DNA from: Crossaster papposus
Taxonomy: Eukaryota; Echinodermata; Asteroidea; Velatida; Solasteridae
Length of the DNA stretch: 64,000 nt
Assembly (NCBI GenBank): GCA_037893245.1
Contig: JBAIAA010000780.1
Coordinates: 248,001 to 312,000, forward strand
Reading direction: 5' to 3'
Part shown: positions 15,180-41,600 of the stretch, one piece after another
How positions within the stretch are numbered: the first letter of the stretch is position 1
How the letters are laid out: each line of letters begins with the position of its first letter
The notes under the pieces: generated by a model
The model's database searches: none
What the model was told of the DNA's origin: nothing
The model's input: the letters and a program-made list of their open reading frames with translations, nothing else
Made by a program: the position numbers and the translations under genes

Positions 15180-16175
15180 TTATGGAGTATAGTGATTTCA
15201 TTCCCGTGTAGAATTTGTGTAGTGATTTGTTGTGCACGGGTCTATGGAGTAGTGAGTAGGGATTTCATTTTCCCTCCAAAAATTACTTTTTAGTTTGTAC
15301 ACGGTTCTATGGAGTAGTGATTTTATTCTCGTGTAGGATTTGTTGTGCACGGGTCTATGGAGTAGTGATTTTATTCTCGTGTAGGATTTGTGTAGTGATT
15401 TTTTGTGCACGTGTCTATGGAGTAGTGAGTAGGGATTTCATTTTCCCTCCAAAACTAACTTTTTAGTTTGTACACGGTTCTATGGAGTAGTGATTTTATT
15501 CCCGTGTAGAATTTGTGTAGTGATTTTTTGTACACGGGTCTATGGAGTAGTGAGTAGGAATTTCATTTTCCCTCGAAAAATTACTTTTTAGTTTGTACAC
15601 GGTTCTATGGAGTAGTGATTTTATTGTCGTGTAGGATTTGTGTAGTGATTTTTTGTGCACGGGTCTATGGAGTAGCATGGAGGAACCTTCTTATTCCTCC
15701 ATGGGAGTAGTGAGTAGGGATTTCATTTTCCCTCCAAAACTAACTTTTTAGTTTGTACACGGTTCTATGGAGTAGTGATTTTATTCCCGTGTAGAATTTG
15801 TGTAGTGATTTTTTGTGCACGGGTCTATGGAGTAGTGAGTAGGGATTTCATTTTCCCTCCAAAACTAACTTTTTAGTTTGTACACGGTTCTATGGAGTAG
15901 TGATTTTATTCCCGTGTAGAATTTGTGTAGTGATTTTTTGTACACGGGTCTATGGAGTAGTGCGTAGGAATTTCATTTTCCCTCGAAAAATTACTTTTTA
16001 GTTTGTACACGGTTCTATGGAGTAGTGATTTTATTCCCGTGTAGAATTTGTGTAGTGATTTTTTTGTACACGGGTCTATGGAGTAGTGAGTAGGAATTTC
16101 ATTTTCCCTCGAAAAATTACTTTTTAGTTTGTACACGGTTCTATGGAGTAGTGATTTTATTCCCTTGTAAGATGT
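15180..16175. repeat. 125-bp tandem repeat array, about 7-8 units
   Basis: Each unit holds TTTTAGTTTGTACACGGTTC, GGAGTAGTGATTTTATTCCC, GTGTAGAATTTGTGTAGTG and ATTTCATTTTCCCTC. Spacing of the TTAGTTTGTAC word is 173, 125, 161, 124, 125 and 125 bp. The 161-bp interval is explained by an inserted hairpin at 15676-15703 plus its 7-bp duplication. Confidence 0.92.
15676..15703. mobile_element. 28-bp hairpin element with 7-bp duplication, copy 1
   Basis: Arms CATGGAGGAA and TTCCTCCATG surround the loop CCTTCTTA. It is flanked by GGAGTAG at 15669-15675 and again at 15704-15710. Neighbouring units of the 125-bp array have a single GGAGTAG and no hairpin, so the uninserted site is visible in the same array: insertion added exactly 35 bp (28 + 7). 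Confidence 0.85.
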
Positions 16176-16820
16176 CGGAAATACGGTTCGAGTCATTGAA
16201 ATAGTAGGAGTAGGGCTTGTATACTACTCAACACATATGGGCAAATTCTTCCCCCCAAATCGTGCAGGGTATCGTCAGGGCAGTGTGGGCTGGTGACATT
16301 CCCCGAAATATGTTAGGTTAAGTATTGAGACTGGATGCCAGACCATAGAATTGTTTAGTATTATTAGACGTGTTTCAAGTCTTGATTGAAGTAATCGTAG
16401 ATTAAAAAATGGTCAGTGCCGCGCCTGTGGCAATCGGGCGGCAATTGGGCGGCAATATCAATCAAGTATATCTTTTGAAATTGTCCAAGAATGTCCCCCC
16501 GGCCCCCAGCGACCACTACTGTGCGTTTAATAGTACTGCGTTCCCACCGGTTGCGTTCCCGGCCTTTTTGGAGGGCGACGTAAAACTCCGTGCAAGACTA
16601 ACAGAATCGAATGTGGGCGCTTTAAATTTAATTTCCACAGCACATTTAACTAGAGAACGTAGAGCGCCGCAAGGGCAGCTCAGGCGCTGTCCAGCGTGGT
16701 CGCAGTAAATTATGTGTGATGAGCTGTTCCCACTGAACTTTTCAGCGTCCCTGGTAATAACTTACTGTGGCTGATGATGAGCGGAAACTTATTTCCGCGA
16801 CCACTTTATTTGGCCCTGTA
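16176..16820. other. Intergenic, no gene seen
   Basis: The 99-codon frame at 16409-16708 has no recognisable domain and no convincing splice context; I do not call it. Confidence 0.4.
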
Positions 16821-17207
16821 TAAGCCACTTTGGAGTTCCGACTGCGCATGTGCACAACAAGATTCAACAATTTTTCTCAAGGAGGTCAAGTGATACAAAC
16901 ACGGCAGACAAATGCACACAAGGCTATGGGGGACGTGGTAACCAAATCCGCATTTTTTACATTTTCTTGTGAAATCGAAAAAAATAAATAATATTTGTTC
17001 GAACAAAGGTTTGGCCACACAAAGCGGCTGAAAACACCAAAACGTAAACAAAAATATGTTATTTAGTAACTTTAAAACACGACGATCTCTTGAAATTTGC
17101 TGGTACCCCGCTATGCTTTTGCACGCAATCGATGAAATGTTTATATCGAAAGAAATATCGTCAAGGGAAAATGTGCGCATGTGCAGTTGGAATACCAAAT
17201 TGGCTTA
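16821..17207. mobile_element. 387-bp MITE, copy 1
   Basis: Ends TAAGCCACTTTGGAGTTCC and GGTATTCCAA-type inverted terminus ending TTGGCTTA. A second copy of the same length lies at 51269-51655 with only a few differences by eye (for example aaaGgtttgg for aaaAgtttgg). Both keep an open frame of about 120 codons on the - strand with Cys-rich text (KCKKCGFGYHVPH), but the near identity of the copies means this openness is not evidence of selection. Confidence 0.85.
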
Positions 17208-17341
17208 TCTCCGCCGTGGTACGTTGTCGTTGACATTGACAGGTACTGTACTGCCACTGGTATGAAGAACGTCGTCCAACCTGGGCTAGTATGTACCGCG
17301 CGTTCCGTACTTCCAACTGGATTTAAATTGGGAACTCTACC

Positions 17342-18450
17342 TAAAGCCCCAGTCCCACCGAAAGCCGGATACGCTGCGCTACGGATCACCCCGGATGCAC
17401 TACGGTTCATATCCAGGGTCATCCGGCCGGGAGTGGAACCGTAGCCAATCCGGGACCATCCGGGGGCATTCTCGCGGTCGGACATCCGGGAACTTCGTTT
17501 ATCTTCCCATAAAGTCTATTGTCGATCGGTTGATTTCAACAGGTGGCGCCCTGCGCTACGCAAGAAAGGGAGCATCGCGCGCACGGCGAACCACTCGAAA
17601 ATATGTCGTCACAAAATTCCTAAATCTAAAAAGAAGACCAACTCTCGTCGTATTTGAGGGCCAAAGGTGTTGTAGTAAATAATGAAAATAACAAAGAGCT
17701 TGCTGAGAAGGCATAGCGGGCCGAAAAGCTTGGTTTAGTGCAAAACTGCTCCCTTTTCTACCCATCATGCTTTGCGGGATCGCGATCAACAATAGACCTT
17801 ATTGTTTATGCACTTAGCGCAAAGGGGAAAATTTGAGGTTAAACGCATGTTGTTATGGACGGCTCGCCCCTTCGTGACGTCATGCCGACCGCGAGAATCT
17901 GTAGTACGTCCGGGAAGTCGAGCGTCACCCCGCATCAACATCTAGCATCCGGGGCGATCCGGATCCATCCCATCCGAAAAGGGAGAGGGGGGCTGCGGAG
18001 AACCGTAGTGAAACCGTAGTGTGACCGTGATGATCCGTAGTGTATCCGCAATAAACCGTAGTGCAGCGTAACCGTAGTGTAACCATGTTCATCCGGGATG
18101 AAACGGGAGTTGGTTCACACACGGTTTCAAACTTTTACTACGGTTCCACTACGGATGACCCCGGACACACTACGTACGGATCACCACGGATTCACTACGG
18201 TGTCACCACAGATGTGAACCGTAGTGAATCCGTGACCATCTGGGGTCATGGGGGAAAAACAGACTTGAACTGGGATGATCCGGGGCCATCCGTGGTGGAA
18301 CCGTAGTCAAACCGTAGTAGAACTGTAGTAGGACCGGGGAAACATGTCACTTTTTTTCGATTGCCTTCCTGGATGACCCCGGATCAAACGTCTGTTTCAT
18401 CCGGGGCCATCCGGGGCGATCCGTAGCATATCCGGCTTCAGTGGGCTTAA
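17342..18450. mobile_element. 1.1-kb inverted-repeat element rich in CCGTAGTG words
   Basis: The left end contains AAGCCGGATACGCTGCGCTA and CGGATCACCCCGGATG; the right end, read in reverse complement, has AAGCCGGATATGCTACGGAT and CGCCCCGGATGG. The words ACCGTAGTG / CACTACGGT and CCGGGGCCATCC recur many times inside, in both orientations. No transposase is recognised. Its right end is about 110 bp upstream of the first coding exon of the MGAT4 gene. Confidence 0.72.
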
Positions 18451-18569
18451 AGTCGCGGTACGTTAATCAAAAAAGTTGAATGAGGAAATAAGTATAACAC
18501 GGCTTTTATTAATATTAGTTTTGTACAATGTTTTTAATGAAAATGTGGTCTGTCTTTACAGCCGTCACC

Positions 18570-18590
18570 ATGGTAACATCTCAGACATGA
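18570..18590 (+). promoter_or_regulatory. Possible upstream ORF of the MGAT4 gene
   Basis: An ATG in strong context (TCACCATGG) opens six codons and stops at TGA 18588-18590. That stop overlaps the main start (ATGA, start A at 18587). The exon appears to begin at 18561 after TGTCTTTACAG, so the uORF would be in the mature mRNA. An overlapping stop-start could lower translation of the main frame or feed reinitiation; this is inference. Confidence 0.45.
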
Positions 18591-18698
18591 TGCAAGGAGT
18601 GAACATTAGAACTTGGAATCGGCTGCTCGTGGCTGCTGTTCTGATTCTCTTTGCTTTGAATATCTGGCTAGTTAGAACTCTTCTTAACTCTTCGTCAG
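18587..18698 (+). CDS. MGAT4: MGAT4 coding exon 1
   Basis: Residues 1-37: start Met, then the membrane anchor LLVAAVLILFALNIWLV. The acceptor TGTCTTTACAG ends at 18560, and the donor is TCAG/GTCAGT (phase 1). Confidence 0.88.
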
Positions 18699-21600
18699 GT
18701 CAGTTGAGAACAATTTAGTCATCTCTTTTATTTAATATTGTTTTTTTCCCTTTACCGACATATTGTGTTTAACCAGTTCGCACCGGGATTATTTTAACAT
18801 CACCGAGCCGAGGGGTGGGATTATTTTTAACAAAACTCGATCCGAAGTGGATTTAGGCAGATAGTGCCGAGAAGCACACCCACGCATTTTCGGCCTTGCT
18901 CGCTGCTGACAGACATTTCCGAACTTGAACTTGGCGTGTTTATGCGTCATCCATTTTGAATTTGGGGAAAACTTTGCGTTTATATACGTCATCCATCGCG
19001 AACTGGTTAAACAGTTTGCGTCGGAGGATATTTGTATGTGTATACGGGCAAAGTATTTAGGGGATTTAAAACGAATGACGGATAAACTCGGCACGAGCAA
19101 GGCCGGAAATATCTGTCAGCGACTTGCTCGCAGCGAGCAAGGCCGGATATAAAATTATCAGGGTGTGCTAACCACAGATTCCGGCCTGAACTCGTCTCAG
19201 AAAACCACTTTTGTTATTTAATTTAGTATGATGCACAAAAGGTTCATAAATGCCCATAAAACAAAGACATTGCCCTCAAAGATGGTTGAAACGCATAAGG
19301 TCTATACTCATTGTTGTTCTGAGTTCTGATAATTTTTGGGGGAAAACTACTCGGGAGGACTTGAGTAAGTTTGATAAATAATTTAACGTCAATCATTTGA
19401 CTTGGTAAGACCCCCCCCCCTCCCCCTGTGTATAAATCCAGTTGATTGTATTAAATATTTTGTTTGTTTTTGCTTCAGATCTTCAATTACTGGAAAGGTC
19501 TGACATTCTTAGAAGTTCGCACGCAAAAGAATATTCACAACAGCAGGTACACATTATTTTTGATATTTTTTAAGGGCAGAGCCAGAGATGATACTTGGGG
19601 GGGGGGGGGGGGGGGGGCCTGAGGGTTAGCGTTATGGGGACTTGTGTAAACTGAAATCTCTCTAATCTCAAACTCAGAACACTCTAAATTCAAAAATTTT
19701 CAGCATCACCCTAATTTGTCCTCTTCTTCATTTTCTTTCAATATACTCTAACCCAATTTTTCCTTGTTCTACCTTTACTGAAGACCCGACGCGCGAATAT
19801 GACCGAATATTCAAATATTTAAAATGGGCTAAATAAATTAAAAATATATTTTTTATTTTATACACCCCAACCTTTTCAAGACCTAAGTGACAGTCTAAAT
19901 TTTAATAGTGCTCATGCTGTTAAAAGACTTGGCTCAAAGGAAAGTAAAGTTTGAAGAAATAATTGTTATAAACAGTGTGTAAAGGTCATTGAACTCTCAT
20001 CGGTTACCAGGGGTCAGATAGGAATTGCCCCAATATCTTATATTTTTGGTGGTGGCTTGAAGACTTGTCATGCAAAGTTTGAGGATTTTATCACAAAGTG
20101 CACAATTCTGATCCTATAATGCCGCTTCACTAAATGGAATTATAGAGCGGTAATTTTTTAACGAATATTCAAATTGGCAAAATGCTGTTCGAATATTTGA
20201 ATAAGATTAAAACTGCTGCAAACTGCTTACTGGCTGGAATGACCTGAAATATACAAATCAAATAAGTTAAAAGGGCCTAATGTTTTGATATTAACAAGAT
20301 CTTCTTCAGAGACAGATCTTTGTTCGAATATTTGATTGATATTTGATATATTCGCAACAGCACTACTGTTGTTTCTGATCGTTAGTTAATCGTTTTTGGG
20401 ATTTTAGTATTGCACGATTTTCAAAGAAATTTACCAAGAAATACCTCCAAAACCAGTTCTTGGGTTATAATGACTGTTTGCGATTCAGGGTTGCGATTCA
20501 GTATTTCCCGAGGCCGAAGGCTGAGGCAAATAGGTCCCCCTTCTGGTCACTCACAGGCCCGAGGGGGGATAGACGTGCCCTAGTGACCGAATCATGCCAG
20601 TCCATATGTGTTTTATAACACAACTCGGTCCAAAATATGAAATAATCGTGATCCGATCTAGACGCGGTCATTTTTCATACTAAGATGAGCCTAGCAAAAC
20701 GATCTTGAGGGCGCTGTAACTAGTCAGAAATTTTAAGTCTATTGCCCGCTTCGAGAACTATTTCCTGCAAATTCACGGTGGCGCAAATCTCATGCATTAG
20801 CCTATATTAGTTAACCCCACGTGACCGTGTTTCAGCCAACCAGAATACAGAACTAGCAAAAGGTGTGTTATAATTGTATTTATTTTTATTTAGGGGGCCT
20901 ATGAAGGTTCTTTTAAATATATTCAAAACTTCTTTATTAGTATGACCCATCCAGTTGGTTTATATTTACTAAATTGATGTTAAAAATAAGAAAAATCGAA
21001 ATAAATATTTTTTCCAAATATTTAATTCATTGATTTTTGTGTGACTAAATTGCCAAAATCGTGTATCCCCGGCCGCCACACAGTGTACAAACAGTTTATA
21101 AACAATGGTCAGCTATTATGACAGCTAAACACACAGGCAGAAATTTACCAATCCCTGTGGGAATTCCTGTTTTATTAGATCTCTGTTGCAGTGTGGGTTT
21201 TAGACCAAGTCTGAGAAAGTTAATACATGTACATGTAGCTGTTTCATATGGTGGGAATGTATGAATGAGAACATGTTTGAGAATGTATGAGAATGTATGA
21301 GAACTCAGATGCTGAAAAAGGTTATTTATTATCATGAACAAAAAGAACAACACCAGGCTTATATAGCTAAAAATCACGATTTAAATCAACGTGATTGCAA
21401 TTGCCAAAACGAATTCCAGATCGACCTTGCAAAAACGAATTCCAGATCGACCTTGCAAAAATGAATTCCAGATCGACCTTGCAAAAATGTTTGTTGTATC
21501 CTAGATTTGTTTTCAGATACATGTTTCCCGCCAACAAAATTGCCTGTGACTTCCCATGTGCTGTGCTGTTACACATTATTGTTACACATTATTTCTATAA

Positions 21601-23563
21601 ACAGCTTCATTGTAATTGGGATTCTGCTGTTTGTATTGCAGGCTCATCAGGTCTTGTATCCTGACTCCAGGCCACAGCTGTGCTCTAGTTCCCCACACAT
21701 CGACAGGAATAAAGCCATTGTACTCGGACACCGCAAACGTACTAAAGGTACCGTAAATAATAATAATGGGCAATACACATGATTGAAGGGTAGATAGTTG
21801 TTTGACTAGTTTCCCGTGAATATCTTTTGAATTTGACAAACTACTGTACATACATGTATGTAGCTTGTTTCTGATTCGAAGAGTTAAGATCAACTGTCTA
21901 CCAAAATAAACCACACACACACACACCAAGGAGACAAAAGGGACACCATGGAACACCATGTCCTGTATCTCATATCTTGAATCAAATTGATACAAATCTT
22001 GTACCGGTATGAGTGTACAACTGTGGATGTACAAATGTTCCAACTCGTGTACAGACGTTAAAGGTAAAATGCCTCATTTTCAGATATCGACAATATTTAC
22101 TACCGAATTATTAAAAAACACCCTATTTATCAACACTAGTGCTATAAACACACATTCTCTTGAATTGTAGGAGGTGAGTGAACAATCACCTTAAACTTTG
22201 GTTAACTTTTTTAACCACCTTTTATTGCAACACCTAATTACAAATATGGACGGCAACAGAAGTTAGGAACTCAAAGTTGTTGTGCTCTAGTACAGTTTAG
22301 GGTGGAGGAAGAAGGAGGGGGGGGGGGTGGATTTTAATGGTTTTGGTATTAAGGTTGGGGATAGCTATTGGTCATTGCTAGTATTTTATTTATTTGCCCC
22401 GTCTTGCAGATTTCTTGACGATAGGAGTTCCAACAGTCAAGAGACATGAGCAGTCATACCTCAAGAAGACCCTCGATTCCATCATTCAGAGTACAAGCAT
22501 CCAAGAGCAATCCTTGGTAACTGTGGTTATATTCTCCGCCAACTTTGACGAGGAACTGAACAATCTCCTCAGAGTGGAACTGGAGTCCGCCTACCGGGAG
22601 CACTTTACCTCCGGCTTCATGCAGCTCATCACGGCTCCGAAATCGTTCTATCCTCCCTTGGAAAATCTCAAGCAGAATTTTGGTGACTCTAAGGAGCGCG
22701 TGTCATGGCGGGCCAAACAAGTCGTAGACTATGCGTTCCTGTTTAGTTACTGCCAGGGCCTGTCGGAGTACTACCTACAGCTAGAAGATGACGTCATCTC
22801 CTCCCCGGATTTTGTCTCGCTGATTAGGAACTACCTGGAGGTGGTGAAGTATAAAAAGTGGACGACACTGGAGTTCTCGGAGCTCGGCTTCATCGGGAAA
22901 CTCGTCCGTTCCAGTGAGCTTCCCAGGCTGACGCAGTTCATGCTTTTCTTTTACGAAGACCAGCCTGTTGACTACTTGCAGAAGTATTACAATCACTTGA
23001 ACGCCCAGGAGGGGACATTCCGGCATGCGCCGTCGCTCTTTCAGCATACCGGCACGAAGTCCTCGCTGAGAGATAAAGAACAGGAGCTGGTCGACCAGTT
23101 CTTTGAGGACAACGTGAGGAAGTACCATGGTGACAACCCACCGGCAGTGCTGTACAGCAGTATAGAAGCCTTCGGCATGTACACTCCTCAGCTTGCCTAC
23201 AGCTCCAAGCCGGGCCACTTCTGGGGGAAGACGCCCATCACTGGGGACACCTTCCTGGTGGTCTTTGAGTCACCGGCCCGCCTCTCTAGAGTCGTCATCG
23301 AAACGGGGTCGGAGAAAAACCCAGAGGATTACCTGCGGTCTGGAAAACTTGAAGCCAGCCCCGTGGTGATCATACACAGTCTAGACGGGACCCCCCGATG
23401 CGCAGATTATTATGGCATTGGCGGGTTCACGGATGGCAGATTGGACGTCGGCAACTTGGAGACAACTCTAGACTTCCAAACCACCTGTTTGCAGATAACC
23501 ATCACCAAAAGTCAGCAAAGTTGGCTATTGATCAGAGAGATCGCTGTGTGGGTTCACAGGTGA
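18587..23563 (+). CDS. MGAT4: Alpha-1,3-mannosyl-glycoprotein 4-beta-N-acetylglucosaminyltransferase (GnT-IV / MGAT4 family), 479 aa
   Basis: Complete coding sequence in four exons: 18587-18698, 19479-19546, 21642-21747 and 22410-23563. All junctions are GT-AG and phases match (1, 0, 1), giving 479 residues. The product should add a beta-1,4-linked GlcNAc to the alpha-1,3-mannose arm of N-glycans in the Golgi. Residues 13-29 form one hydrophobic anchor after a short N-terminal tail, as in a type II Golgi enzyme. The catalytic region starts near residue 96 (DFLTIGVPTVKR) and holds FGDSKERVSWRAKQ (186-199) and QLEDDV (219-224), the DXD-like metal/UDP-GlcNAc site. TLEFSELGFIGK follows. The C-terminal 130 residues (FWGKTPITGD onward) match the lectin-like domain of this family. 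Length fits MGAT4C-sized members better than MGAT4A/B; the paralogue is not decided. A 5' untranslated exon upstream of 18561 is likely but not seen. Confidence 0.93.
18769..19010 (+). mobile_element. TTAA-flanked MITE, AACCAGTTCGCGCC family, copy 1
   Basis: Begins TTAACCAGTTCGCACCGGG and ends ATCGCGAACTGGTTAA, a terminal inverted repeat of about 16 bp with TTAA at both ends. Other copies are at 24759, 48131, 56619, 59164 and 60853. TTAA duplications fit piggyBac- or Kolobok-type transposition. A diverged, partly inverted second copy continues to about 19200. Lies in MGAT4 intron 1. Confidence 0.85.
19479..19546 (+). CDS. MGAT4: MGAT4 coding exon 2
   Basis: Residues 38-60, stem region. Acceptor TTTTTGCTTCAG, donor CAG/GTACAC, ends in phase 0. 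Confidence 0.85.
19547..21641. other. MGAT4 intron 2, no further gene seen
   Basis: About 2.1 kb. It has a G tract of roughly 19 bases near 19599, AT-rich text, and a 26-bp triplicate near its end. No exon-like frame with matching phase is evident. Confidence 0.5.
21403..21480. repeat. Three tandem 26-bp units
   Basis: Units share GAATTCCAGATCGACCTT preceded by GCAAAAAC, and differ at one or two bases; a partial fourth follows. It lies in MGAT4 intron 2. Confidence 0.95.
21642..21747 (+). CDS. MGAT4: MGAT4 coding exon 3
   Basis: Residues 61-95 and the first base of 96; stem region with basic stretch GHRKRTK. Acceptor TTGTATTGCAG, donor AAAG/GTACCG (phase 1). Confidence 0.87.
22058..22125 (+). 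mobile_element. Fragment of the TTAAAGGTAGGATACACC MITE family
   Basis: Only the left end is recognisable: GTTAAAGGTAAAATG, then CAGATATCGACAATATTTAC and TACCGAATTATTAA. Truncated copy in MGAT4 intron 3. Confidence 0.55.
22410..23563 (+). CDS. MGAT4: MGAT4 coding exon 4 (catalytic and C-terminal lectin-like domains)
   Basis: Residues 96-479 and the stop codon in one large exon. Acceptor CCCGTCTTGCAG. It carries all recognised catalytic motifs, including EDD at 221-223. Codon use is clearly more GC-rich than the surrounding introns. Confidence 0.95.
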
Positions 23564-23847
23564 TTTCCCAATGGACCCTTCAAAAAGGTAGGTTACTAAT
23601 CAGGTGCATGATACAAGAGACGATTCGCGAGTCAATCCAAAAGTCGGGTCTGAAGTACATGTACTACGTACCGGTACATGTAACAATGACAAAGGAATAG
23701 CACCTAAAACTGACTGACTCTGCAATCAAGTTTGGCTATCTTTACTATAGAAAGTATCCTGAATCCATCAAAATCTCCCAGTTTTCAATATAAAGGTATC
23801 CTGAATCCGTTGAAATTTTCAAAAACAGGGGTATGGGTTTTGATGGA

Positions 23848-24352
23848 TTTAGGGGAGTAGTACACCATTGGTAATTGATTGAATAATCAACCTTAACCCT
23901 GCCAGATCCAGCACAGTCCATATGTGGTGACTGCTTTACCTTGCTGGGCTCTGCACACAAGTCAATGTGACAAAGTATGCAATATGTTGCGTCTGGCAGG
24001 GTTTCTAGCCAAAATACCCTGGAGGGTTAGGGTTGGGTTGGTTTGGAGGGTTGTATTTTATAGTAAATACCAAGGTATGACCTGTCCAAAGTTTCAAAAT
24101 CATGGATGCTGAGAAAAGCACGAAAAATGGCATTCATTTTCAACCGGTGTCGGGCAGTGTTTTTTTTTGCGATTGCTGTCCGGCAAAGATTTTTTTTATA
24201 TAATTCAATTTTTCGTAACAATTATATGTAGGGCAATCATTTTGCTGGATGCCTGCAATCAATATTTACTTTTTAAAAAGTAAAATATGACTTAATTTGG
24301 GAGTAAACATTTTCGATATCTGAAAAAGGTGTATACAATATCCTATCTTTAA
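23848..24352 (-). mobile_element. TTAAAGGTAGGATACACC-family MITE interrupted by a smaller MITE
   Basis: The text GTACACCATTGGTAATTG at 23859 and TCGATATCTGAAAAAGGTGTA at about 24313 are the two ends of the family. The interior is split at about 23893-24020 by an insertion with AACCCTGCCAG / CTGGCAGGGTTT inverted ends. Confidence 0.7.
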
Positions 24353-24758
24353 TAACAGTTCAAAAAAGCAGAAATGTGAGCATCTTCAATTTTATATAGC
24401 TACATGTATACTCTTTACAAAGGGTTATTTTGGAACTTTTTAATAATTTAAAAATCCCATTGATGTACAAACTAATGTATTTCATAGTTTGGGGATTTAT
24501 TTATGCTTACGGTACTACATGTCATTATATTTTATATTTATATTAAAATTACAATCAGTTTCGTGATTGCATAAGGTATGTGTAAAATTTGTTTCATCAT
24601 GTGTACATGGTTTGAATTGTATAAATTTGTAAAAACAGATAAAAAAATAAAAAATAAAATTATAAAAAAGGCCTAAAATCCTTATTTGTGTATTTTGTGG
24701 CAAACTTGACCGCCGTAAAAGTTAATAGAGCATGCAGTAGTTTAGCGAGTAGAAAGAT

Positions 24759-24913: not shown

Positions 24914-25023
24914 TGGAAAATTAAGTCGAATTCTGCTATGTTTCAATAAAGATTCACATACAAACTACTTCCTTTTTAGGCCAACCAATAATTACTTATG
25001 TTTTTACCCCACTGCCCCGTCGA

Positions 25024-26990: not shown

Positions 26991-26994
26991 TAGT

Positions 26995-29642: not shown

Positions 29643-32216
29643 CTTGCCTATAGAGATAAAGATAGCACAACAACTAAATTAACGTTTGCTCTTGTTTATC
29701 CTCCAACGCACTTTAATATGCATCCCCAAAAAACCTGTGTATTAAAGCACACTGCTAATTGGAAACCACTGCCATGCAGTGATCTGCCCTGATAGAGGGA
29801 GGGTTAAAGGAAATATACAAGTTATATTATTATAACCAAGAAATAAATTACTAAATTATCACAAAATACTTTACTGGACTGTTTGTGAATGGCAGTCTGA
29901 AGCATCCTGTAAAATAATGGCTCCTGGTGTGCCGACAACGTGTATTTTTGTATCAATTTCCCAGCATTGGGAAAAAATGACTTGAGACTTTTTTTGTTCT
30001 CGTGTACAACATTCTTCTGGGTTCCAATTAAACCCTATAAAAAGGCTATATTATACCCTAACCCTATACCCAAACACTATTTTGCGAAAAACCTTGTGGA
30101 GACCTATTCATCTATATTAAATATACCCAGTAGATGGAGACCTTTTGCCTCCCATTGTGTTCAGGAGTTCCACAGGGTACCAAAAGTCCAGCCATTTTTG
30201 TTGGGTGCGATTTTTTTTGCAATGCAATACGCATATAATTCATTAACATTTGTTGTACTCGGCATGAAACTATTCCAGAATATAAGTTACAAGATCTCGT
30301 TCCTGTGCTACCCGTGGTACCGTAGTAGACCGCGTACCGGCAGCTAGCCCAGAGCACCTTTATCAAATAAACGAGGTACCAATATCTGAAGGTAACCGTA
30401 GATGGATGTCTGCCAAGGAACATACAACGCTATGTGGTCGGCCCTGGGGGCATATATCCAAAAGAGGCCCAAACAATATATTATATGCTCTCGATCAAAC
30501 CATAGAAGTTGGAAGTACCACCTCAAACCATATGCATGGAGCTATAATGATGATCACACAGTAGACAAATTTTCCACTGCATCGTGCCCGCCATATCATG
30601 CAGACACCCCAAAATGTCCCCCACATAACAATTGGCCTGGTTCGACACTAAGTGCCATACAACCGCTGTATGGGATACTGTAATAGTATTACAGTATGGG
30701 AACTAGGATACAACAACAGGCGCAGGTCATCATCAGCATTTATGGTCGTGCTATTTGAAAGATAGTGTCAGAAGTCGTTACCTTGGCACCCATTGATTGG
30801 ATTGATTAGAGCGTGTCAATCCATTTTAATGGTGTAATAGGCGAAAACCGCACCATGTTAATGGTTGTGCATGGCCGGCCTAGCGTATAGTTCACCCTTG
30901 GCATAGCTTCCGGAATTCCGCCATGTACATACAGCCTGGAACTGGCAAATGTGGCTGATGCCCTCCAGATCGATGCCCCAATCCATCCACTCAAAGTTGT
31001 TGACCGTATAACAGAGAGCGAATGTATATAGCCCTTGATTTATCTGCACTCGATCTCCACATAATGTACATGTACATGTACATGTTTTCTACCGAATAAC
31101 CGAATATACATACCTGTACGGGTACTACCATAGAGAATGCTACCAACAATCTCAAACTAAACGATTATACCTGTATAAAATGTACAAGTAGTTTTTCACC
31201 CGAAGAGTGACCCAATTAATAGATCTAACAGGTATAGGTTTTGAACATTATTTGCATTTTGGATGGGCATGGAGCAATAAACTATGCCGGGATGGGCAAC
31301 GTTCGAATCGTTTGGTTTAAAACTATCTCGCTTGGAAAGAATTACGTTCGCGATCGCTTCAGGTTTATTAATTATATCCTCCCATCCAAGTCATTGGTTT
31401 GTAACGCAAACAATATACATCACAAATAAGTTTCCAGTTTGTCCACGCGCCCACGTTAATAAGGGAAAACAATTGTAATAAGTTGACGAAAAAACCCAAA
31501 ACATGGTGTTGCGATTAAAATAAATCGTCATGTACATGATGTAGGTTATACCATGGTTATACATGTAGTCAGTTTACTGCAATGAGCGATAATGGCGCCA
31601 TGGGTGATTGAAGTTCACAAATTCCCCTAAATTTAGGCACTGAATTATACTTTCCATTAAAGAGGGGGGGGGGGGGGGGGTTAGAGTTGAAAAGTGCAGG
31701 CAAGACGTGAAGTTTGTCTGAGGTACAATAAACTTCTGACCCAATATTGCGGAGGTCAAACTATGACCCTTGCTTGTGGGGTGCGCGGATGAAATTCACA
31801 TGACGACGCGGTACGGTATACGGTAGAAAATAATGCGCTGAGGATCTAGGAATGGGTGATGGGTGATGGTAAGAAATACTTTTGTTGCAAATAGTCGGTC
31901 GCACTAATAAGCGTCAACAAGTTGTATAAGTACTTGTTAACCCTTAACAATTATGTTCATAGTATTCAGTAGGATTCTAGGATTATTTTAAACATATCAT
32001 AGTATTTTAAAGTACTTTAAAATGCGCGATTTTGAAATGCGCATGAGAAAACAGATGGTGGCGCCCAGTCACCGTAATTTTGTCGCCATAATATTTCGTT
32101 TTGATATTTTTATAAGGAGAGAATTTGTTGCATATTGTGATTAATTTTGTGAAGCTTAAAATTGTATGTTAAGCTTGTTGACGCTTTGTTAAAGCTAAAT
32201 AGTATGACCCCCCCCC

Positions 32217-32251
<35 letters not shown>

Positions 32252-33992
32252 TATAGTTATAGCGGTAATAGTTATGTATATTGTTATGGTTTAAAAATTG
32301 ACTAACTGCAATGCTAAACAAATAAGGTTTAAATCTCCTAAAATTGTCCAAAGATAGGCTACCAGAATCCTGATATCTGCATGGATCTAGATAGATCAAT
32401 CTAAAAATGTAATGAAATCACCCTTGACCCATAACTAGCTACCAACCCACCAAATCCCCCCCCCCCCGTAATATCCTGCTAACAGCTAAACGTACAAACA
32501 AACAACAAACACAACCTCCTTGGCAGAGGCATAACCCAGATAATACACACCGCATCGTTGTGATTAGAGCAGTTGGTTTATAGACAGTTTGACGCGTACC
32601 GTAAGACCAGGTGTAAATGGTCGAAATCGACTCATCAAACACTCAAAAATCAGTACTTGTAGTAGTTTTGCCCCTGCAATAAATTCCATTCTGTAGTCGT
32701 TGAAACTTGAACGTCATTTGTTCTCTGTCTTGGAGGTATCTCGAATTGTATAGTCTATAATATTAGTCTATAGTCCCGCAAGGCTTTTTCGGGCGCCCAT
32801 AGTGTGCACGGTCGCTGAGCACGGTCAGTGGTCGGTTGCTAGGGGGATGAGGGGTACGGTACCCACACGCGTTGGGTGAAATGTGTAAATTGTATTGTAA
32901 TTGGTCGTTAGTGTATGAAACGCCAAAGAGTCATTTAATAAGACCATCGTACTTACTAATAAACTGGTTGGAAGTCGCTATTCCAGGGAGTATACATCCT
33001 GAGCCACGCAGAGTTTAACGGGCTCTCCAATAATTGTCGCCCTGAAACCCTGCGGACATTTGCAGCAATCATTAAACAAGCGGGCCAATACATGATATGA
33101 ACGTCCACCCCTGGTAAAATGACAATTTCTACCACTATACTTGATTTTATTGGCGTTTATGTAGCTTTTCAGTCTTTTATGTTTTTTTTATTCTGTATAA
33201 TATATAATAACAAAGCTTTGTTTCACGTTCTGTACGTTAATTTCTACAATTTTTCCGATTAATTTAAATTGTTACGTGGGAGGATGAACATTTGAGAGAA
33301 CACCTCAGATATCCAAGCGAATAGGCCAATAGACATGCGCATTGGGGTCGAAGTTGGTTCGCATGCCTTGGTTTTTTTTTTTTACGAACCCCAGCTTAGT
33401 TGTCTTTATCTCAGGCTTCATTCATACAGTTTAGTAATTGGCTGTAGCCTTAGACGGAGCCAAAGCCAGGGGTTTGGAAAACGGCCTTGGTCTGTTTGTA
33501 ACGGAGGCTCTGATTGGGCGCATGATTTTTTGCGCTAATAACCGGGATCTGGCCGAATGTCCGCAGGGCTTTGAGCGCTAGTAGAAAGCGCGTAAAGTGC
33601 TGCGTGGCTCAGGGTGGGGAGTATAGCAAAAAACAAGACTTTTTTGATAGTAGACGTGAGCAAAGCATGCGAACAATCTGACGACCAATTACCGGCTTGG
33701 TTTCAAGTATATACATACATTTCACGGTCATGACTAGCCTCATCAGCGATCAAAAAGTCCATCACCACTTCAAAAAGTCCATCACCGATTGCAAAACACA
33801 AAAGATGATCACCGATCGTGAAAGTGCAACACCATTTCGATGATCACATTACATTCCTCTTTGGCGTCCCAAACAAAACTCGTTCTGGCGCTCAAACGGC
33901 GGAAACGCCAACGGCACCAAGAAGGCAAGAACATTGCACTCGGAACAGGATCATATTAAATACCACCTGTCATCGAAGTTTTGCACGAACGA
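29643..33992. other. Intergenic, no confident gene
   Basis: Holds an ATGTAC run near 31065-31085, a G tract at about 31664-31680, and a C/A tract near 32209-32248. Frames at 29940-30347 and 30402-30683 have no recognised domain; text near 30400-30560 has some coding-like flavour on the - strand but is broken by stops. Confidence 0.4.
30858..31034 (-). pseudogene. Possible isolated exon or gene remnant
   Basis: One - strand frame reads QGLYTFALCYTVNNFEW, MDWGIDLEGISHICQFQAVC and TWRNSGSYAKGELYARP before a stop. The amino-acid mix looks protein-like, and GTGCAG at about 31035 could be an acceptor, although its pyrimidine tract is poor. No partner exon or family is recognised. Confidence 0.25.
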
Positions 33993-34000
33993 GTTTACAC

Positions 34001-34314
34001 CACTGACCTCTACACCTGGACGGACCATTGTCCATATTCTGCTGTGCTAACACTTGAAGTCAGCGCGAACTGGAAGTGCAACATGGCGGACCCGAGACGT
34101 CACTGCTGTGAGCCAATGAAATGTCCAGGTGTTGAGGTCAGCGGATTTATTCTGTACATTTTGTATTTATAAACATTACGTAATACGTATCGTACCAACA
34201 CCTGGGCATTTCATTGGCTCACAGAGTCACGTCGTGGTTCCGCCATGTTGCACTTCTCCGCATGCCGACTTCAAAATGAAACAATGATGATCTGTCCATG
34301 TATAGAGGTCAGTG
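34001..34314. mobile_element. 314-bp hAT-like MITE with perfect 8-bp duplication
   Basis: Termini CACTGACCTCTACA and (inverted) TATAGAGGTCAGTG. Flanked by GTTTACAC at 33993-34000 and 34315-34322. Subterminal arms also pair (CAATGAAATGTCCAGGTGTT with AACACCTGGGCATTTCATTG). The 8-bp duplication and CA...TG ends fit the hAT superfamily. Confidence 0.88.
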
Positions 34315-34429
34315 GTTTACACGGGTCAAAAACAGACCACCCGAAACCAGCCATTATGGGCACAGCGCCACCTAGCTGTGATATAAATAGATGGGAACGG
34401 GGCTTCAAGGTGACCGTGGAGTGTTCAAC

Positions 34430-34444
34430 CATGGAGGAAGGAAA
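34430..34444. repeat. Half copy of the hairpin element
   Basis: CATGGAGGAAGGAA follows TTCAAC; only one arm is present and no flanking duplication is visible. The same shortened text occurs at 37128. Confidence 0.45.
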
Positions 34445-34589
34445 ACTTACTTGGTAAAGAATCGTACTCCATGTACATGTACATCCCACGAGAAAAGCGT
34501 AGGGGTTTTGTTTATGGGGTTGGGCATTAATATTTTTGTTTTACCGCAAAACATTCCACTTTTTCGTGCACACGTGTATTTGGTCCAGT

Positions 34590-34609
34590 CATGGAGGAAT
34601 TCCTCCATG
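34590..34609. mobile_element. 20-bp perfect palindrome element, copy 2
   Basis: CATGGAGGAATTCCTCCATG, with no loop. Flanked by GTCCAGT at 34583-34589 and 34610-34616, a perfect 7-bp direct repeat unrelated to those of the other copies. Confidence 0.83.
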
Positions 34610-34761
34610 GTCCAGTCCAGTGGTTTGGGGGAATTTGACTCGCCGTGGGACGGACGTGGGTTCGAACCCCTGCTTGTGTTCTTGGGCAAGACACTTTGCT
34701 ATAATTGCCTTTTTTCACCCAGGGGTATTGTGTACCTGATGTGAAGGTAGAGACCACGTAC

Positions 34762-35318
34762 CACTGATCTCTACAAACTGGATAGGTCGATCGTACATTG
34801 ATGGGATAGCGAGCCGTGAGGTCACCGGCGGCCATGTTGGGATATTCAATACAATGCAGTAATCGCACGTGCGCGCACTAACATTTTCTAATTTTTTTTA
34901 TTATAAAACTGGCACTTTTTAGTGTCTGGATATAAAATTAAACCCCAAAGTTTAAGAATTTCCTTGATCCAAAAAACCTCGTTTTTCATTTTCCTATGGT
35001 TTGTGCATAAGGTTATAATGTTGGAAATGTTAAAACAAACTTTTGGTCTCATATCTTTTCCCGAAAATAGGGCTTTTTAATATTCAAACTTGGCGTATAC
35101 ATCTCATTATTGGGTGTTATTATGTTTAACTTAATTTTCCTAATCAAACTGGATTGTTTTTGCGACGTTAACTTCGTTTCCTGTGATATTAAATGAGTTT
35201 TCTCGGTCGTGCGCTATACAAACGTGTGTACGCCTGCAATGTTTTGCATATCCCAATATGGCCGCCAATGGCTTCACGTGCAGAGCCGCTCGACCTATCC
35301 AGTTTGTAGAGATCAGTG
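34762..35318. mobile_element. 557-bp hAT-like MITE with perfect 8-bp duplication, nested in a SINE
   Basis: Termini CACTGATCTCTACAAACTGG and its inverse CCAGTTTGTAGAGATCAGTG; inverted pairing continues through GGATAGGTCGA / TCGACCTATCC. Flanked by CCACGTAC at 34754-34761 and 35319-35326. Related at its ends to the 34001-34314 element. Confidence 0.9.
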
Positions 35319-35538
35319 CCACGTACACGCGTTGATCTTGAGCTGCAGCAGAAATGGTCTCGTTATAGTGGTGAACAGGAATAATAATAATTGTAAAGCG
35401 CTTTGAAACATTACATTGTAGGGGTATAAAGCGCTATACCTGTACATGTATACACTATGTATACACCAACAATTTTATTATGATCCAACGTACATTCAAA
35501 AAACAAAAAAGGGGAAATCCATCTTTCCGTTACGTACA

Positions 35539-35826
35539 TTTAAAGTTAGAATACACCATTTGCAGATATCTAAAAAATGTACAACCGAATTATCAAGAAA
35601 TATTACTAATTTAAAAGTAAATAATTATTCTAGGCATCCAGCAAAATGATTGCACTAGATATCCTGTAGGCCTAGTTGTTTACAAAAAAAATATAAAAAA
35701 AATAAGGAAAACAATTACGATCGCCAGACGGCGATCACGTGAAAAAGGAAACAAAAAAACAACAAGAACAACTGCCCGACGCCGGTTGAAAACGAACACC
35801 GTTTTTCTTCCTGTTTTCTCAACCTT
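35539..35826 (+). mobile_element. TTAAAGGTAGGATACACC-family MITE, 3'-truncated
   Basis: Begins TTAAAGTTAGAATACACCAT and keeps the internal hairpin GATCGCCAGACGGCGATC and the GCCGGTTGAAAACGAAC block, then loses similarity near 35826. Confidence 0.75.
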
Positions 35827-38003
35827 ATCAGACATTATTGGTCAGTACCGTGACCCCAAAAACAAAAAACCAAAAAAAACACAGCCCGGTTTATTAAAAC
35901 ACGTCTGCCAATACTCAATGGGATGGCTGAAATTGCTTCGCTGAAATATAAAATGGCTGAAATAGGACCCCTTTATGACCCCCTAGAAAACCCCAAACGA
36001 CCCCCATGGGGTCACGACCCCCAGGTTAAGAACCGCGGTCATACGAGCTAATAATATTTGTTTTCCCAACTATTTTTACATTTTAATTGATTAAAGGCTA
36101 ATAATATGCCTAATACAAGATTCACCGCTCAGCTAGTTTATACCTCTTGGCGGGACGCGTAATTTTTTTCATAGGAGGGTTAGGGCAGGGGGGGCGGAGG
36201 GGGGGCCCTTCGAGACTGTGATTGCGCAACGCTGACGTACCGTCCATTCTCAAAATAGGGGGAAACAATTTTCTCACGCGAAAAATAAAGAGTTTTTGGC
36301 ATCCAATCTTAACATCTTGTCTTTTGTAGTTGTAAAAGGTTGTTATTTACCTTAATGTTTATCATCCAATGACAACAATTGTATTGAAAATGAAAAAAGC
36401 AGTCGAAAAAATTAAGCGTTGACGTACCGTTGATGCGCGTGGAGATTGTGCACAAATACTCAAACGACGTTAACAAATACCTCCCCTAAAAAGGGCAATA
36501 ATAATCGATAAATTGTGAAAAATCGTGCTTTGACCCCACTCATTTTTTTCCATGGATACGTTAAAAAAGGATGTAGCAGTGATATACTGAATTTTTAAAA
36601 AAATCTGCCTGTGACCCCCTTGCGTTTTATCGTGTTGTTTTCGAACGAAAATGGCCGAAAATGACATCGCCCCAAAACAAATTCGTGTAGATCGTGCATG
36701 TGTTTCTGGCTTTGCGGACGTTGCATGAATCACTGAATTCGGAGAGCGATACACGGAGCAAATTTGTACGTGTTCCAATGGTACGCCGCGCGAGAGCGAT
36801 CTATACGTATTTACTGTGTGAGCTGTGCAGCTCTCGAGCGTGGAAGAATGAATGAGATACATTTCAACGTTGGTGGCGCACTTTGTTGGGTCCCCCCTCC
36901 GCCCCCCCCCCCCTGGGTTAGGGGTAATTATCATAAATGGGCGTATCTACACCACACGGAGTGGAAGACACTAGTTCTCAGATCCTTATTTTCAAGACCA
37001 AAATAGTCAATGAAAAATAGAGAGCGAATTCGAACACCAGTCAAACGATCTATAACCTAACCCATTATCCACTAAGCTATGAGAGGTCGACAGAAGCCGT
37101 TTTTCTTACCTCTGGGCTATGTGTAACCATGGAGGAAGGAAGGTGTAACTAGTTGAATGAGCAATAACAATGTAGCGTCATTGTTAAAACTACTGAGTAA
37201 TCATGACGCGAGGGGTCTAGAGCCGCCCATTTATTATTACCCCTAACCCTCCTAGGAAAAAAATTACGCTGGCGGGACCCTATTTTGAAGTCCAAATTAC
37301 AATAGGGTCTGAAAACCAGACTAATTATATGCGTCCGTGGATGCAAACCCCCCCCCCCCCCCCCCCCCGCTCTTTCGCGCAGAAAATGACGTCATCGAAA
37401 CACGCGCGATATATTGCGCCACGTGGTTTATCGACAAACCACGTGGCGCCCACCGCATGCACTAGCTGTCACGATCGCGCGCGCATTTCGTTGTTATCGT
37501 GCGGCGTGATGGTTCAACTTGTTGAGGCAGGGAAGGATGCGGCTGTTTTTCAAGGCGTTCTTGAAATGTATTGTATTTGTTACATAACTGTCATTCAATA
37601 GTATTCCAACTATGTTAAAGTTCTTGCCACGCACGCACACAATGCATTGGCGTGTCCAGGGGGGGGGCTTTGGGGGCTGAAGCCCCCCGCACGCGCGGAT
37701 CCCCCAAAAAAAAATGAAAGAGAAAAAAGAAGGAAAGGAGGAAAGAAAAAACGAAAGAAAAAACGAAAAAAAAAAAAATGATTTGACTCAGCCCCCCGCA
37801 GGAAAAAATCCTGCACACGCCTCTGCAATGGGGAATTATGAACCCAGCCATTCCACCGTATGCACGGGGTACGGTGGGACGTCCGTTAGGGCAGGACACA
37901 AACAACTCACCATTTGGACTGTTCCTGTCCCGCGCGTGTGTGGCCCGGCTGCGACAGGTCGAGACTGGGCGAGAACCAGGGCGACGTACAGGTACATATG
38001 CCT
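35827..38003. other. Intergenic, no confident gene
   Basis: Homopolymer-rich. It includes a poly-C tract near 37350-37368, a GA-rich stretch at 37714-37780, and the paired words GGCGTGTCCAGGGGGG (about 37649) and CCCCCCGCAGG...CACACGCC (about 37792-37820). The pair suggests an old repeat border. The 154-codon frame at 36470-36934 has no recognised domain. Confidence 0.4.
37128..37142. mobile_element. Shortened hairpin element with 7-bp duplication, copy 3
   Basis: CATGGAGGAAGGAAG between GTGTAAC at 37121-37127 and GTGTAAC at 37143-37149. One arm is intact and the other is lost, but the duplication is perfect. Either the copy decayed after insertion or a shortened form was mobile. Confidence 0.6.
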
Positions 38004-38530
38004 ACCATGTAGACCCAATAATTGGGGCGTTTTCACTCCTTTTTCGAATTTTGGATTTTGTCTGTCGTTCTACGCCCCAACCGTTGTAAAGCATGGTGCC
38101 AATTAAAAACGAAGTTGTGACCACAAAAGTTGACAAAAACATGCCAAATACTTGACAATGTATATTGGAAAGCGCACACTGGCTTCTATACATGTTAAAG
38201 AAGAACTATTATGGCTTTATTGGTACTCACGGTTATTTGGGGTTGCAAATCCGAGCAATTTTGACCATGCCTATAACGTCTAGGTCTATATAAACTATAT
38301 AAACTACATAGACGTCCCGACAGCACCCGACTCACATAAAGAGCACACTATGCGAAGACGGGGGACACGACAATGGCTTTTCTAGCGACCACCAACGACT
38401 GTTTTATGGTGCAAGAGCGTAGGCTTGCATCGCTGCACTGTATAGCGCGCATGCGTGTGCGCGCGTAGCGGAACTTGTACAAAATAATGCAAATTCGTAT
38501 TGAACCGGGCTAATTGCTGGCACACACGAT

Positions 38531-38777
38531 CAGGGGCCAATTTCACGGAGCTGCTAAGCACAAAAATGTGCTTAGCATGAACATGTGTCCTTGGTCAAAA
38601 CAAGGTTACAGACAAAATTTTCATGTGATCTTTATTGTTTTTGATTGATAATCGGCTGGTTTTTTGCTTAGCATAAAAAACACGTACAATTTTGGCTGAT
38701 AAATTGTTTTTAATGAGCAAGATGTTTTTGTGCTAAGCAAATTTTTGTGCTTAGCAGCTCCGTGAAATTGGCCCCTG
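38531..38777. mobile_element. hAT-like MITE at the axis of the palindrome
   Basis: Ends CAGGGGCCAATTTCACGGAG and its inverse; internal CTGCTAAGCACAAAAATGTG pairs with a similar inverted stretch near 38735-38757. A second copy is at 48591-48833. The flanks here are mirror images (ACACGAT / ATCGTGT), not direct repeats. Confidence 0.88.
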
Positions 38778-39320
38778 ATCGTGTGTGCCAGCAATTAGCC
38801 CGGTTCAATACGAATTTGCATTATTTTGTACAAGTTCCGCTACGCGCGCACACGCATGCGCGCTATACAGTGCAGCGATGCAAGCCTGCGCTCTTGCACC
38901 ATAAAACAGTCATTGGTGGTCGCTAGAAAAGCCATTGTCGTGTCCCCCGTCTTCGCATAGTGTGCTCTTTATGTGAGTCGGGTGCTGTCGGGACGTCTAT
39001 GTAGTTTATATAGTTTATATAGACCTCGACGTTATAGGCATCATTGTTTTTAAAAGCTGGTCAAAATTGCTCGGATTTGCAACCCCAAATAACCGTGAGT
39101 ACCAATAAAGCCATAATAGTTCTTCTTTAACATGTATAGAAGCCAGTGTGCGCTTTCCAATATACATTGTCAAGTATTTGGCATGTTTTTGTCAACTTTT
39201 GTGGTCACAACTTCGTTTTTAATTGGCACCATGCTTTACAACGGTTGGGGCGTAGAACGACAGACAAAATCCAAAATTCGAAAAAGGAGTGAAAACGCCC
39301 CAATTATTGGGTCTACCTAC

Positions 39321-39348
39321 CATGGAGCAACTAGTTTATTGCTCCATG
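39321..39348. mobile_element. 28-bp hairpin element with compensatory change, copy 4
   Basis: Arms CATGGAGCAA and TTGCTCCATG around loop CTAGTTTA. Compared with the other copies, G-to-C in one arm is matched by C-to-G in the other. Flanked by GGTCTAC (39310-39316, then an extra CTAC) and GGCCTAC (39349-39355). The other palindrome arm has the uninserted site GGGTCTACATGG. Confidence 0.8.
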
Positions 39349-39360
39349 GGCCTACATGGT

Positions 39361-41581
39361 TCGTACATGAGCTCGTGGTAAATGACGATTGTGAATTCAA
39401 ATTCAAATTAAAAGAATGCAGTGTATCCAACCGCCACTTTGTATTCATATTTTATCCCATTATAGGAAGGTCAGTCACACAGCAAAATAATAAACTTACA
39501 TGAATTTCGACTGAGTGGTGGCAGTGCTAAATTCTTTAGTCGTATTTAATAAAAATGTTTCCACTTGCGTTTATGAAGTTGCTTGAGTGCCTCCTTAAAC
39601 TTTAAACATGGAATTTTCACTCTTAAACCGGACTATCATATTAAGTCCAGTTCGAAGAGCAATATCTTATATGGTCTGGTTTCCTGAACAAGGCTGTTAT
39701 AGCCGCCAATGTCACGTGACGAAAATGGGCAGAAAGCTGCCCATTTTCAAAAATATCAGAAGTTTTATTGACAGTCGGTATCTTTTGCAATTTTCGGGTG
39801 TTTCCGGGAGTAAAGTGGTTGTAAGGTAAACAACGTTAACAAAATAAAGCGATAAATCATCTAGATTCTCTTTTTTGGTTTGCGTAAAATCGACACTCGC
39901 ATTGGCAAATATCAAGACCAGAAAAAATATAGTTTAACCATGGAGGAATTCTTATTCCTCCATGGTTTAACAAAACAAATTCAGGCGTTTAAGTGCCTTT
40001 TGGGGGAAAGCCGTTAAAATGTTAATTGCTGCATTTTCTAAAAATAGCTATGCAGTGTACAGTGTGTCATAATCTATTTTTGTCGCCGGCGGCTACCTGA
40101 CCTACAATTTAGACGTCTAAGACTGAGTATAAACAACATTGTCGGTTCAGGGAACCAGACCAGAGCGATATACATACAGGCCGTACCCGAATTGCTGACT
40201 TTTGCTGCGACTTCAGCCGTTGTTGTGCTGTCGCTATGGACGGTCATTGTCCGCCCTTAGCAACAGCATAGCAACGGCTGAAGTCGCAGCTAAAGCCAAC
40301 AATTATTGTCGATGAGGGAGGTTGGGTATTAGTCAGGGAATCAGACTGCTGACAGCCGTAAAGATAGCCACTGCCTATTCATAAAGACTTGGTGCAAACA
40401 TGTTTCCAATATTCAAATAAAAGTTTACTATGATAATAGTAATAATATACAAGGTATAAACAATGTGTTTTCTCCAGTTAGTCCGTGTTGTCCATGTACG
40501 GAATTATTCCCATTAAGTACAGTGAGCATCTTTGAAGTTCATTTATTTAATTAGGCCAAACAGAACAAATTGTGTGTTTACGATAAAGTCTTTAAAAAGA
40601 ATATAGGTTGGTATTAAGTTGGGAAATGATATTTTTATTTTTTTCATTTCAGTCCAGTATTAAATGTGAAAAATAATTGTTTGTGACAAATAATTGAAAC
40701 CATAGTGTTCATTTTAAATTATCAACTAGCAAAATGGCAATAACAAGTTTGATTTCGGCAATTTGGCCGCCTAATATCCAGGTAGGGAGAGTTACTGTAA
40801 GCACACCAATATTTTTGTTTGGCCTTACTCTTTACATTTTTCTTCTTTGTTTAGTGTTCAGATATGGCTATGCCAATTTTGGCGGAGGTTATGTATTTAC
40901 CCGTCTGTCGGGCTGTCTGTCTGTTTGTCTATTAGCAGGAAAAATTTGTGGATCGATAGCTTAATGGTTAGCAGAATCACCACCATGGACATTGGTGGCG
41001 CCATTTTTATGCCCAAAATTACCTCAGTTTGTGTGACCGCATCTAGTCATGGAATGTAACATACAATGGAATTTTTGTAAAAGCTCCAAACGTCAAAAAA
41101 GAAGAATTACAGGGTGTAGTTAACCTTAGAAAGTTTGGTTTGTAAAAATATCCTGTGGCCAAAAAAAGTTCTGGATTCCCCAAACAGCAATGCTGCCACT
41201 GGGTGTGTAAATTTCCCATATGTTTGTACACGTTATCAAATGATGTGGTCACAGTTTTTTTTAGCCAAAACAAGCATCATTTTAAGTAAATAAATACGAC
41301 TTCAAAATGGTGATAACTTAAGAACCGCTTGCCTATGAAGCTAGGGGACCTCTTATTTAATTGCATTTTGAAAGCTACAACTATCAAATCAACTTAAAAA
41401 TTTGATGAATCTACCTACTTATGGGTCAAAAATGATTCCATACAATTTTCAAAGTGATCTGGATCCAGATCAGGAATCTGGATCACTTTGAATGATTTTA
41501 TAACTTTGGCTTTGGGACGGAGGTCTGTGACCAATTAAGTGCCTTTTTTTTAAATTTCCTATTCTCATTAAAACATTGCAG
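39361..41581. other. Intergenic region upstream of the ABCC gene, includes one hairpin
   Basis: No confident exon. A 5' untranslated exon and promoter of the ABCC gene should lie here because coding exon 1 begins right after an acceptor (CATTGCAG, ends 41581). I cannot place them from sequence alone. Confidence 0.45.
39939..39964. mobile_element. 26-bp hairpin element with 7-bp duplication, copy 5
   Basis: Arms CATGGAGGAA and TTCCTCCATG around loop TTCTTA. Flanked by GTTTAAC at 39932-39938 and 39965-39971, a perfect 7-bp direct repeat. Confidence 0.85.
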
Positions 41582-41600
41582 GAACTGAGAAGTATACAGA

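Follow-up and report, generated by a model that had tools for sequence, protein, structure and literature searches.

Short hairpins between 7-bp repeats in the Crossaster papposus genome: probable excision footprints of P-superfamily transposons

Introduction

A 64,000-nt stretch of Crossaster papposus DNA (contig JBAIAA010000780.1, 248,001 to 312,000; hereafter the window, within which site positions are counted) contains several hairpins of 20 to 28 bp, each enclosed by its own 7-bp direct repeat. A preliminary description of this sequence took the hairpin itself to be a mobile element, which raises the question of whether so small a unit can move or whether it marks the former place of something larger. 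The hairpins are most probably excision footprints of P-superfamily transposons cut about 18-20 nt inside their ends, and not mobile units. The observations behind this are the target-site duplications (TSDs), the retained ends and the limit on their length, the classes of junction, the target consensus and the P transposases encoded in the genome.

Results and discussion

Hairpin sites in the window

The sites in the window are as follows.

Footprint A, 15669..15710, no strand assigned: TSD GGAGTAG (15669-15675), CATGGAGGAACCTTCTTATTCCTCCATG (15676-15703), TSD GGAGTAG (15704-15710).
Footprint F, lopsided, 31261..31296, plus strand: TSD GGATGGG, CATGGAGCAATAAACTA, TGCCG, TSD GGATGGG.
One-sided remnant, 34423..34446, plus strand: GTTCAAC followed by CATGGAGGAAGGAAAAC (17 nt of another end type), the end starting at 34430.
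Footprint C, 34583..34616, no strand assigned: TSD GTCCAGT, CATGGAGGAATTCCTCCATG (34590-34609), TSD GTCCAGT.
Footprint D, lopsided, 37121..37149, plus strand: TSD GTGTAAC, CATGGAGGAAGGAAG (37128-37142), TSD GTGTAAC; a shortened copy.
Left TSD of footprint E, 37999..38005, plus strand: TGCCTAC, recognized by reading both flanks; a foldback element now lies between this TSD and the hairpin.
Footprint E, 39321..39355, no strand assigned: CATGGAGCAACTAGTTTATTGCTCCATG (39321-39348), right TSD GGCCTAC (39349-39355).
Footprint B, 39932..39971, no strand assigned: TSD GTTTAAC, CATGGAGGAATTCTTATTCCTCCATG (39939-39964), TSD GTTTAAC.

Perfect hairpins with exact 7-bp flanking repeats stand at 15676, 34590 and 39939. 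A scan of the window that was blind to the motif, for equal arms of 8 with a loop of 0-20, picked out exactly these three at 7 bp; flanking repeats of 4, 5, 6, 7, 8, 9, 10 and 11 bp gave 2, 3, 0, 3, 0, 1, 0 and 0 hits, respectively. The preliminary description listed five hairpins with 7-bp repeats. Its pairs at these three sites and at 37128 are exact, but the pair GGTCTAC/GGCCTAC given for 39321 was misread: GGTCTAC (39310-39316) is the end of the foldback element and is not adjacent to the hairpin, whose own pair, when read across the foldback, is TGCCTAC/GGCCTAC, with one mismatch.

On the minus strand the insert of footprint A, CATGGAGGAACCTTCTTATTCCTCCATG, reads as 18 nt of one end and 10 nt of the other, and that of footprint E as 17 nt, CATGGAGCAATAAACTA, and 11 nt. 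Footprint F (31268-31289), which was not among the five, has exact GGATGGG repeats but one arm; its CATGGAGCAATAAACTA is 17 nt of one end, the TGCCG that follows may be filler, and the other transposon end has been lost. No second copy of GTTCAAC adjoins the remnant at 34423..34446, which is perhaps a footprint with a deletion into its right flank.

Allowing at most one mismatch, CATGGAGGAA has 15 matches in the window against a shuffle mean of 3.7, and none of 100 shuffles reached 15. A loose scan for CATG beside any 7-bp repeat showed no excess (CATG led 14 hits, and the 256 tetramers on average 18); swamped by tandem repeats, it was used solely for locating sites. Degenerate hits such as 18247 and 43242 were dropped (17 rows, against a permuted-arm control with a mean of 4.4 and a maximum of 30 in 60 permutations). 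A lone minus-strand CATGGAGGAA at 50793-50802, followed by AGACAACAGATATTTAG and with no partner repeat found, is either a chance match or a decayed end.

Genome-wide abundance and 7-bp flanks

The whole assembly holding the window (1,023,315,904 bp) was searched, its counts of repeats being lower bounds. There are no fewer than 1713 places with the strict pattern CATGGAGGAA-N(0-20)-TTCCTCCATG, which are not to be read as independent events, and 0 with its backward control. The pattern is its own reverse complement, and both strand counts refer to the same sites. When the same arms were sought with N(21-50), 63 places were found, and many of those listed are compounds of two footprints. The drop from 1713 short gaps to 63 long ones shows that length is sharply limited at close to 2 x 20 nt.

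Flanks were compared at 50 listed sites out of the 1713, lying on contigs C1 to C17 and not a random draw. Exact 7-bp repeats flank 34, a further five have one mismatch and 11 have two or more, while exact repeats of 5, 6 and 8 bp each occur once. Among mispaired flanks, 159 of 98,038 draws matched (0.16%). A genome-wide excess of 7-bp repeats had been set beforehand as a test in the preliminary description, and the excess is strong. Its reading of the repeats as duplications of differing targets is borne out by the same comparison; it was also right that the shared arms have a common origin, and the sites mark transposition events. The TSD consensus of the listed sites is G-T-T/N-N-A-A-C, with GTNNNAC-like targets.

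Some footprints are carried along in larger repeats. Sites L029 and L030 share flanks, and L101-L103, and likewise L097, L098, L104 and L105, are single footprints duplicated inside larger repeated sequences; end counts therefore overstate the number of independent excisions. At C689:1113281-1113407 four or more copies of a 20-bp hairpin alternate in tandem with the same 7-bp GTGATAC, which looks like repeated insertion and excision at a single target.

Hairpin interiors: probable joins of two transposon ends

Each interior in the 50 listed sites can be read as two transposon ends joined together, with 10-20 nt kept of either. Four end types are recognized: CATGGAGGAATAAGAAGG, CATGGAGGAATAAGAGCAGA, CATGGAG[GC]AATAAACTAG and CATGGAGGAAGGAAAACAGA. 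The interiors are made up of CATGGAGGAATAAGAAGG, CATGGAGGAATAAGAGCAGA and CATGGAGGAATAAACTAG, with CATGGAGGAAGGAAAACAGA rarer. Compared with the first three end types, the junctions show microhomology at 16 of the 50 sites, are blunt at 13 and contain filler at 21, although the longer fillers may include end types beyond the three modelled templates. The interiors do not share one conserved unit, but certain junctions are found more than once. Together with the near disappearance of gaps longer than 20 nt, these joins of two variably retained ends speak against the proposal that the 20-28-bp hairpin is what moves.

Of 100 ends, 38 retain 17-18 nt, five retain 19-20 nt and 32 retain 10-11 nt, within a floor of 10 set by the search and a ceiling of 18 or 20 set by the end templates. 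The base that follows a retained end is independent of the templates. After the 20-mer CATGGAGGAATAAGAGCAGA it is C, C, A, A, T and T in six distinct contexts, with no common continuation; after the 19-mer of that type it is A in six of 10 contexts. This pattern fits a limit at about 20 nt. After the 18-mer of the first end type the next base is A in 12, T in 10 and C in four of 26 contexts. Lopsided scars with one end also occur, with an exact second TSD at 31268 and imperfect ones at L097 and L101.

P transposases in the genome

The Tnp_P_element domain (PF12017) has 71 matches in the genome and none in 14 control genomes of unstated kind. The open frames at these matches include ones of 824, 765, 756 and 734 amino acids, and near-identical copies occur on C164, C725 and C793. 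A 702-amino-acid stretch of one frame holds four P-transposase domains (the P-type helix-turn-helix, both parts of RNase H and the GTP-binding insertion) and matches the solved structure of the Drosophila P transposase (6p5a, 1.1e-25). The THAP domain is absent from the four transposase frames scanned. It is clear that P-type transposase frames are present in the genome; their link to the hairpin ends is drawn by analogy.

A start-oriented CATGGAGCAA, preceded by GGATGGGC, lies at position 818 of L096, about 0.8 kb 3' of a P transposase locus.

How the footprints may have formed

Excision by a P-type enzyme is suggested by the anatomy of the scars and the company that they keep. A longer element with terminal inverted repeats starting CATGGAGGAA (or CATGGAGCAA) would once have inserted at each site, with a preference for G-T-N-N-N-A-C-like targets, and would have duplicated 7 bp of the target. 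On excision, the transposase, presumably one of those encoded in the genome or a relative, would at either end cut one strand at the boundary of the element and the second strand about 18-20 nt further in, a stagger whose position and polarity we infer. Up to about 20 nt of terminal repeat would then be left single-stranded on each flank, and cellular end joining would trim and ligate these tails. The product would be TSD, 10-20 nt of one tail, a junction with microhomology, a blunt join or filler, 10-20 nt of the other tail and TSD. Since each tail is the inverted repeat of the other, the scar would be a hairpin, and its loop would vary because joining varies. The objection in the preliminary description that a 20-bp unit leaves almost no room for transposase binding would fall away if a larger unit had moved.

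The scars have what is expected of footprints: a TSD of fixed length from differing targets, tails that reach about the stagger length and vary below it, and end-joining junctions that include one-sided loss. By analogy they work like Drosophila P-element excision repair and, as a set, belong with transposon footprints.

Comparison with known systems

In Drosophila, P excision leaves 17-nt 3' tails at the donor ends (PMC2895639), a stagger termed atypical and counted among the features that distinguish P (PMC7776569). The resulting junctions consist of TSD, up to 17 nt of CATGATGAAATAACATA, microhomology, a blunt join or an insertion, up to 17 nt of the other tail and TSD (PMC2895639, Tables 1-3), and particular junctions recur, in up to 14 isolates (PMC2895639, Pol theta study). 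The Crossaster scars share this plan, including truncated tails that start CATG and junctions that recur. CATGGAGGAATAAG agrees with the Drosophila P tail CATGATGAAATAAC at 10 of 14 positions, for which the chance is about 3e-4 given equal base use and one chosen comparison. The Drosophila junctions were recovered by laboratory assay, whereas the Crossaster scars stand in a genome assembly.

Galileo, a Drosophila element of the P superfamily, has a 7-bp TSD and palindromic targets, GTANTAC/GTATTAC (PMC4168063), near the G-T-N-N-N-A-C of the Crossaster scars; a 7- or 8-bp TSD with a palindromic target marks the superfamily, and the consensus found here has this form. Galileo differs in its long terminal repeats. 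Zebrafish Pdre2/THAP9 likewise shows a P-like transposase outside insects, with short terminal repeats beginning CAT (CATACCTGTCAAC), but has an 8-bp TSD and a different end sequence; excision by zfTHAP9 in S2 cells gave larger flanking deletions (PMC10983969). The P-type miniature inverted-repeat transposable elements (MITEs; P-MITEs) of Anopheles gambiae are also non-coding, with P-type ends and TSDs. In these, a central region is still bordered by the 5' and 3' sequences of the P element, and the TSDs are of 8 bp (PMC1562414), whereas the Crossaster scars have nothing in common beyond about 20 nt of each end.

A literature search found no report of such standing scars, with subscription papers largely outside its coverage and the motif literature covered by titles. 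The scars are unusual for being so many and for retaining longer ends.

Points against excision and the search for a donor

Several observations weigh against excision footprints of P-superfamily elements. The scars do not match the Drosophila P element proper, which has an 8-bp TSD and 17-nt tails; here the TSD is 7 bp and retained ends run to about 18-20 nt, with at least one end type keeping 19-20 nt. Retained length is two-peaked, and the shorter peak, the 32 ends of only 10-11 nt, abuts the search floor of 10. The blunt 28-bp join (18 + 10) of footprint A is found again at four of the 50 listed sites (L006, L007, L022 and L034), each time with other TSDs, as a copied unit would be. Little weight was given to this recurrence, because laboratory P junctions recur too; still, the recurring junction and the tandem TSD-hairpin arrays are the best remaining points for a mobile hairpin.

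The other points against excision come from the search for a donor. The 20-mer end occurs at 453 places genome-wide (230 + 223), and no intact element was seen among the nine of these that were read (50-61 bp each, four distinct contexts). Each of the nine resembles a footprint, in one case a decayed one, and two further places (L017 and L049) were already among the listed hairpins; the remaining, unread places may include intact ends. At 30 of the 71 loci around P transposase matches, a scan that started from exact CATGG gave CATGGAGGAA only with two or more mismatches. Two-mismatch matches are present in most of the 30, at fixed places inside repeated copies. No recognizable end was found in a 6.8-kb stretch or in the 1.6 kb 3' of the open frame at C164, although the latter contains the start-oriented CATGGAGCAA mentioned above.

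Within the window there is no credible long element with CATGGAGGAA-type ends and 7- or 8-bp TSDs. The near-hits 34430-39964 and 37128-39964 were rejected, as they arise from look-alike targets. Inverted 20-mer ends 4.4 kb apart at C13:608165 and C13:612576 were also rejected as an intact element; both have the same outer flank, and they resemble a one-sided footprint that lies within an inverted duplication.

Alternative explanations

The hairpin might itself be mobile, as a minimal inverted-repeat element of 20-38 bp moved in trans by a P-like transposase. Exact 7-bp TSDs around such small units, one 28-bp unit at different targets (15676 in the window and the four listed sites), tandem arrays of TSD and hairpin among the N(21-50) sites (the C689 array is an example) and the failure to find a long donor would all suit such an element. 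It is nevertheless improbable: the interiors vary as truncations of longer ends with filler and not as copies, lopsided scars that lack one end keep their TSD, and tandem arrays are also expected from repeated insertion and excision at a favoured target. Drosophila P transposase, moreover, uses internal binding sites (PMC7776569), and a 20-bp unit would be without them.

Footprints of a cut-and-paste superfamily other than P, with 7-bp TSDs and a long stagger, are just as improbable. P is not alone in having a 7-bp TSD and ends that begin with CA, and no donor was seen. However, the similarity of the ends, the target consensus and the presence of transposases point to P, and a 17-nt stagger is described as atypical and as a mark of P (PMC7776569).

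Slightly less probable again, the scars may have been re-mobilised. Two 10-20-nt ends lying side by side would then suffice as the substrate of a P-like transposase, allowing the smallest scars, of 20-34 bp, to hop and amplify and arrays to grow by repeated insertion at the same target. Finally, although short palindromes are common binding sites and some footprints are carried in other repeats, a host palindrome, whether a protein-binding site or a repeat unit, that is flanked by repeats through chance is very unlikely: exact 7-bp repeats that differ between sites flank 34 of the 50, and mispaired controls match in 0.16%.

Significance

P excision junctions are known from laboratory assays; here more than 1000 places resemble natural repair junctions, with a few related end types. 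Such scars give a direct reading of the stagger, about 18-20 nt where Drosophila has 17, and of how joining divides among microhomology, blunt joins and filler. If donors are rare or gone, at which the small sample only hints, a P-element invasion would be recorded today mainly by its scars. They would escape any repeat annotation that disregards units under about 50 bp.

Other features of the window

The element that separates footprint E from its left TSD is as follows.

Foldback element, 38001..39324 including direct repeats, no strand assigned: element about 38010-39315, ends TAGACCCAATAATTGGGGCG, arms 92-100% complementary.

It is a 1.3-kb near-perfect palindrome at the left edge of footprint E, and its direct repeat is 9 bp at most (CCTACCATG). 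From the sequence of the flanks it appears to have inserted at that edge, and would thus be younger than footprint E. A 9-bp direct repeat would presumably suit a Mutator-like foldback.

Two short elements at 34001-34314 and 34762-35318 have terminal repeats CACTGA(C/T)CTCTA and 8-bp direct repeats (GTTTACAC and CCACGTAC); we take them to be possible hAT-like MITEs. Long repetitive stretches open in many frames lie at 8047-9137, 6184-7370, 11461-12032, 55281-55760 and 60022-60493. An MGAT4-type glycosyltransferase exon and a sub-threshold match to the ABC transporter domain TMD0 are present at 22382-23563 and 41589-42296.

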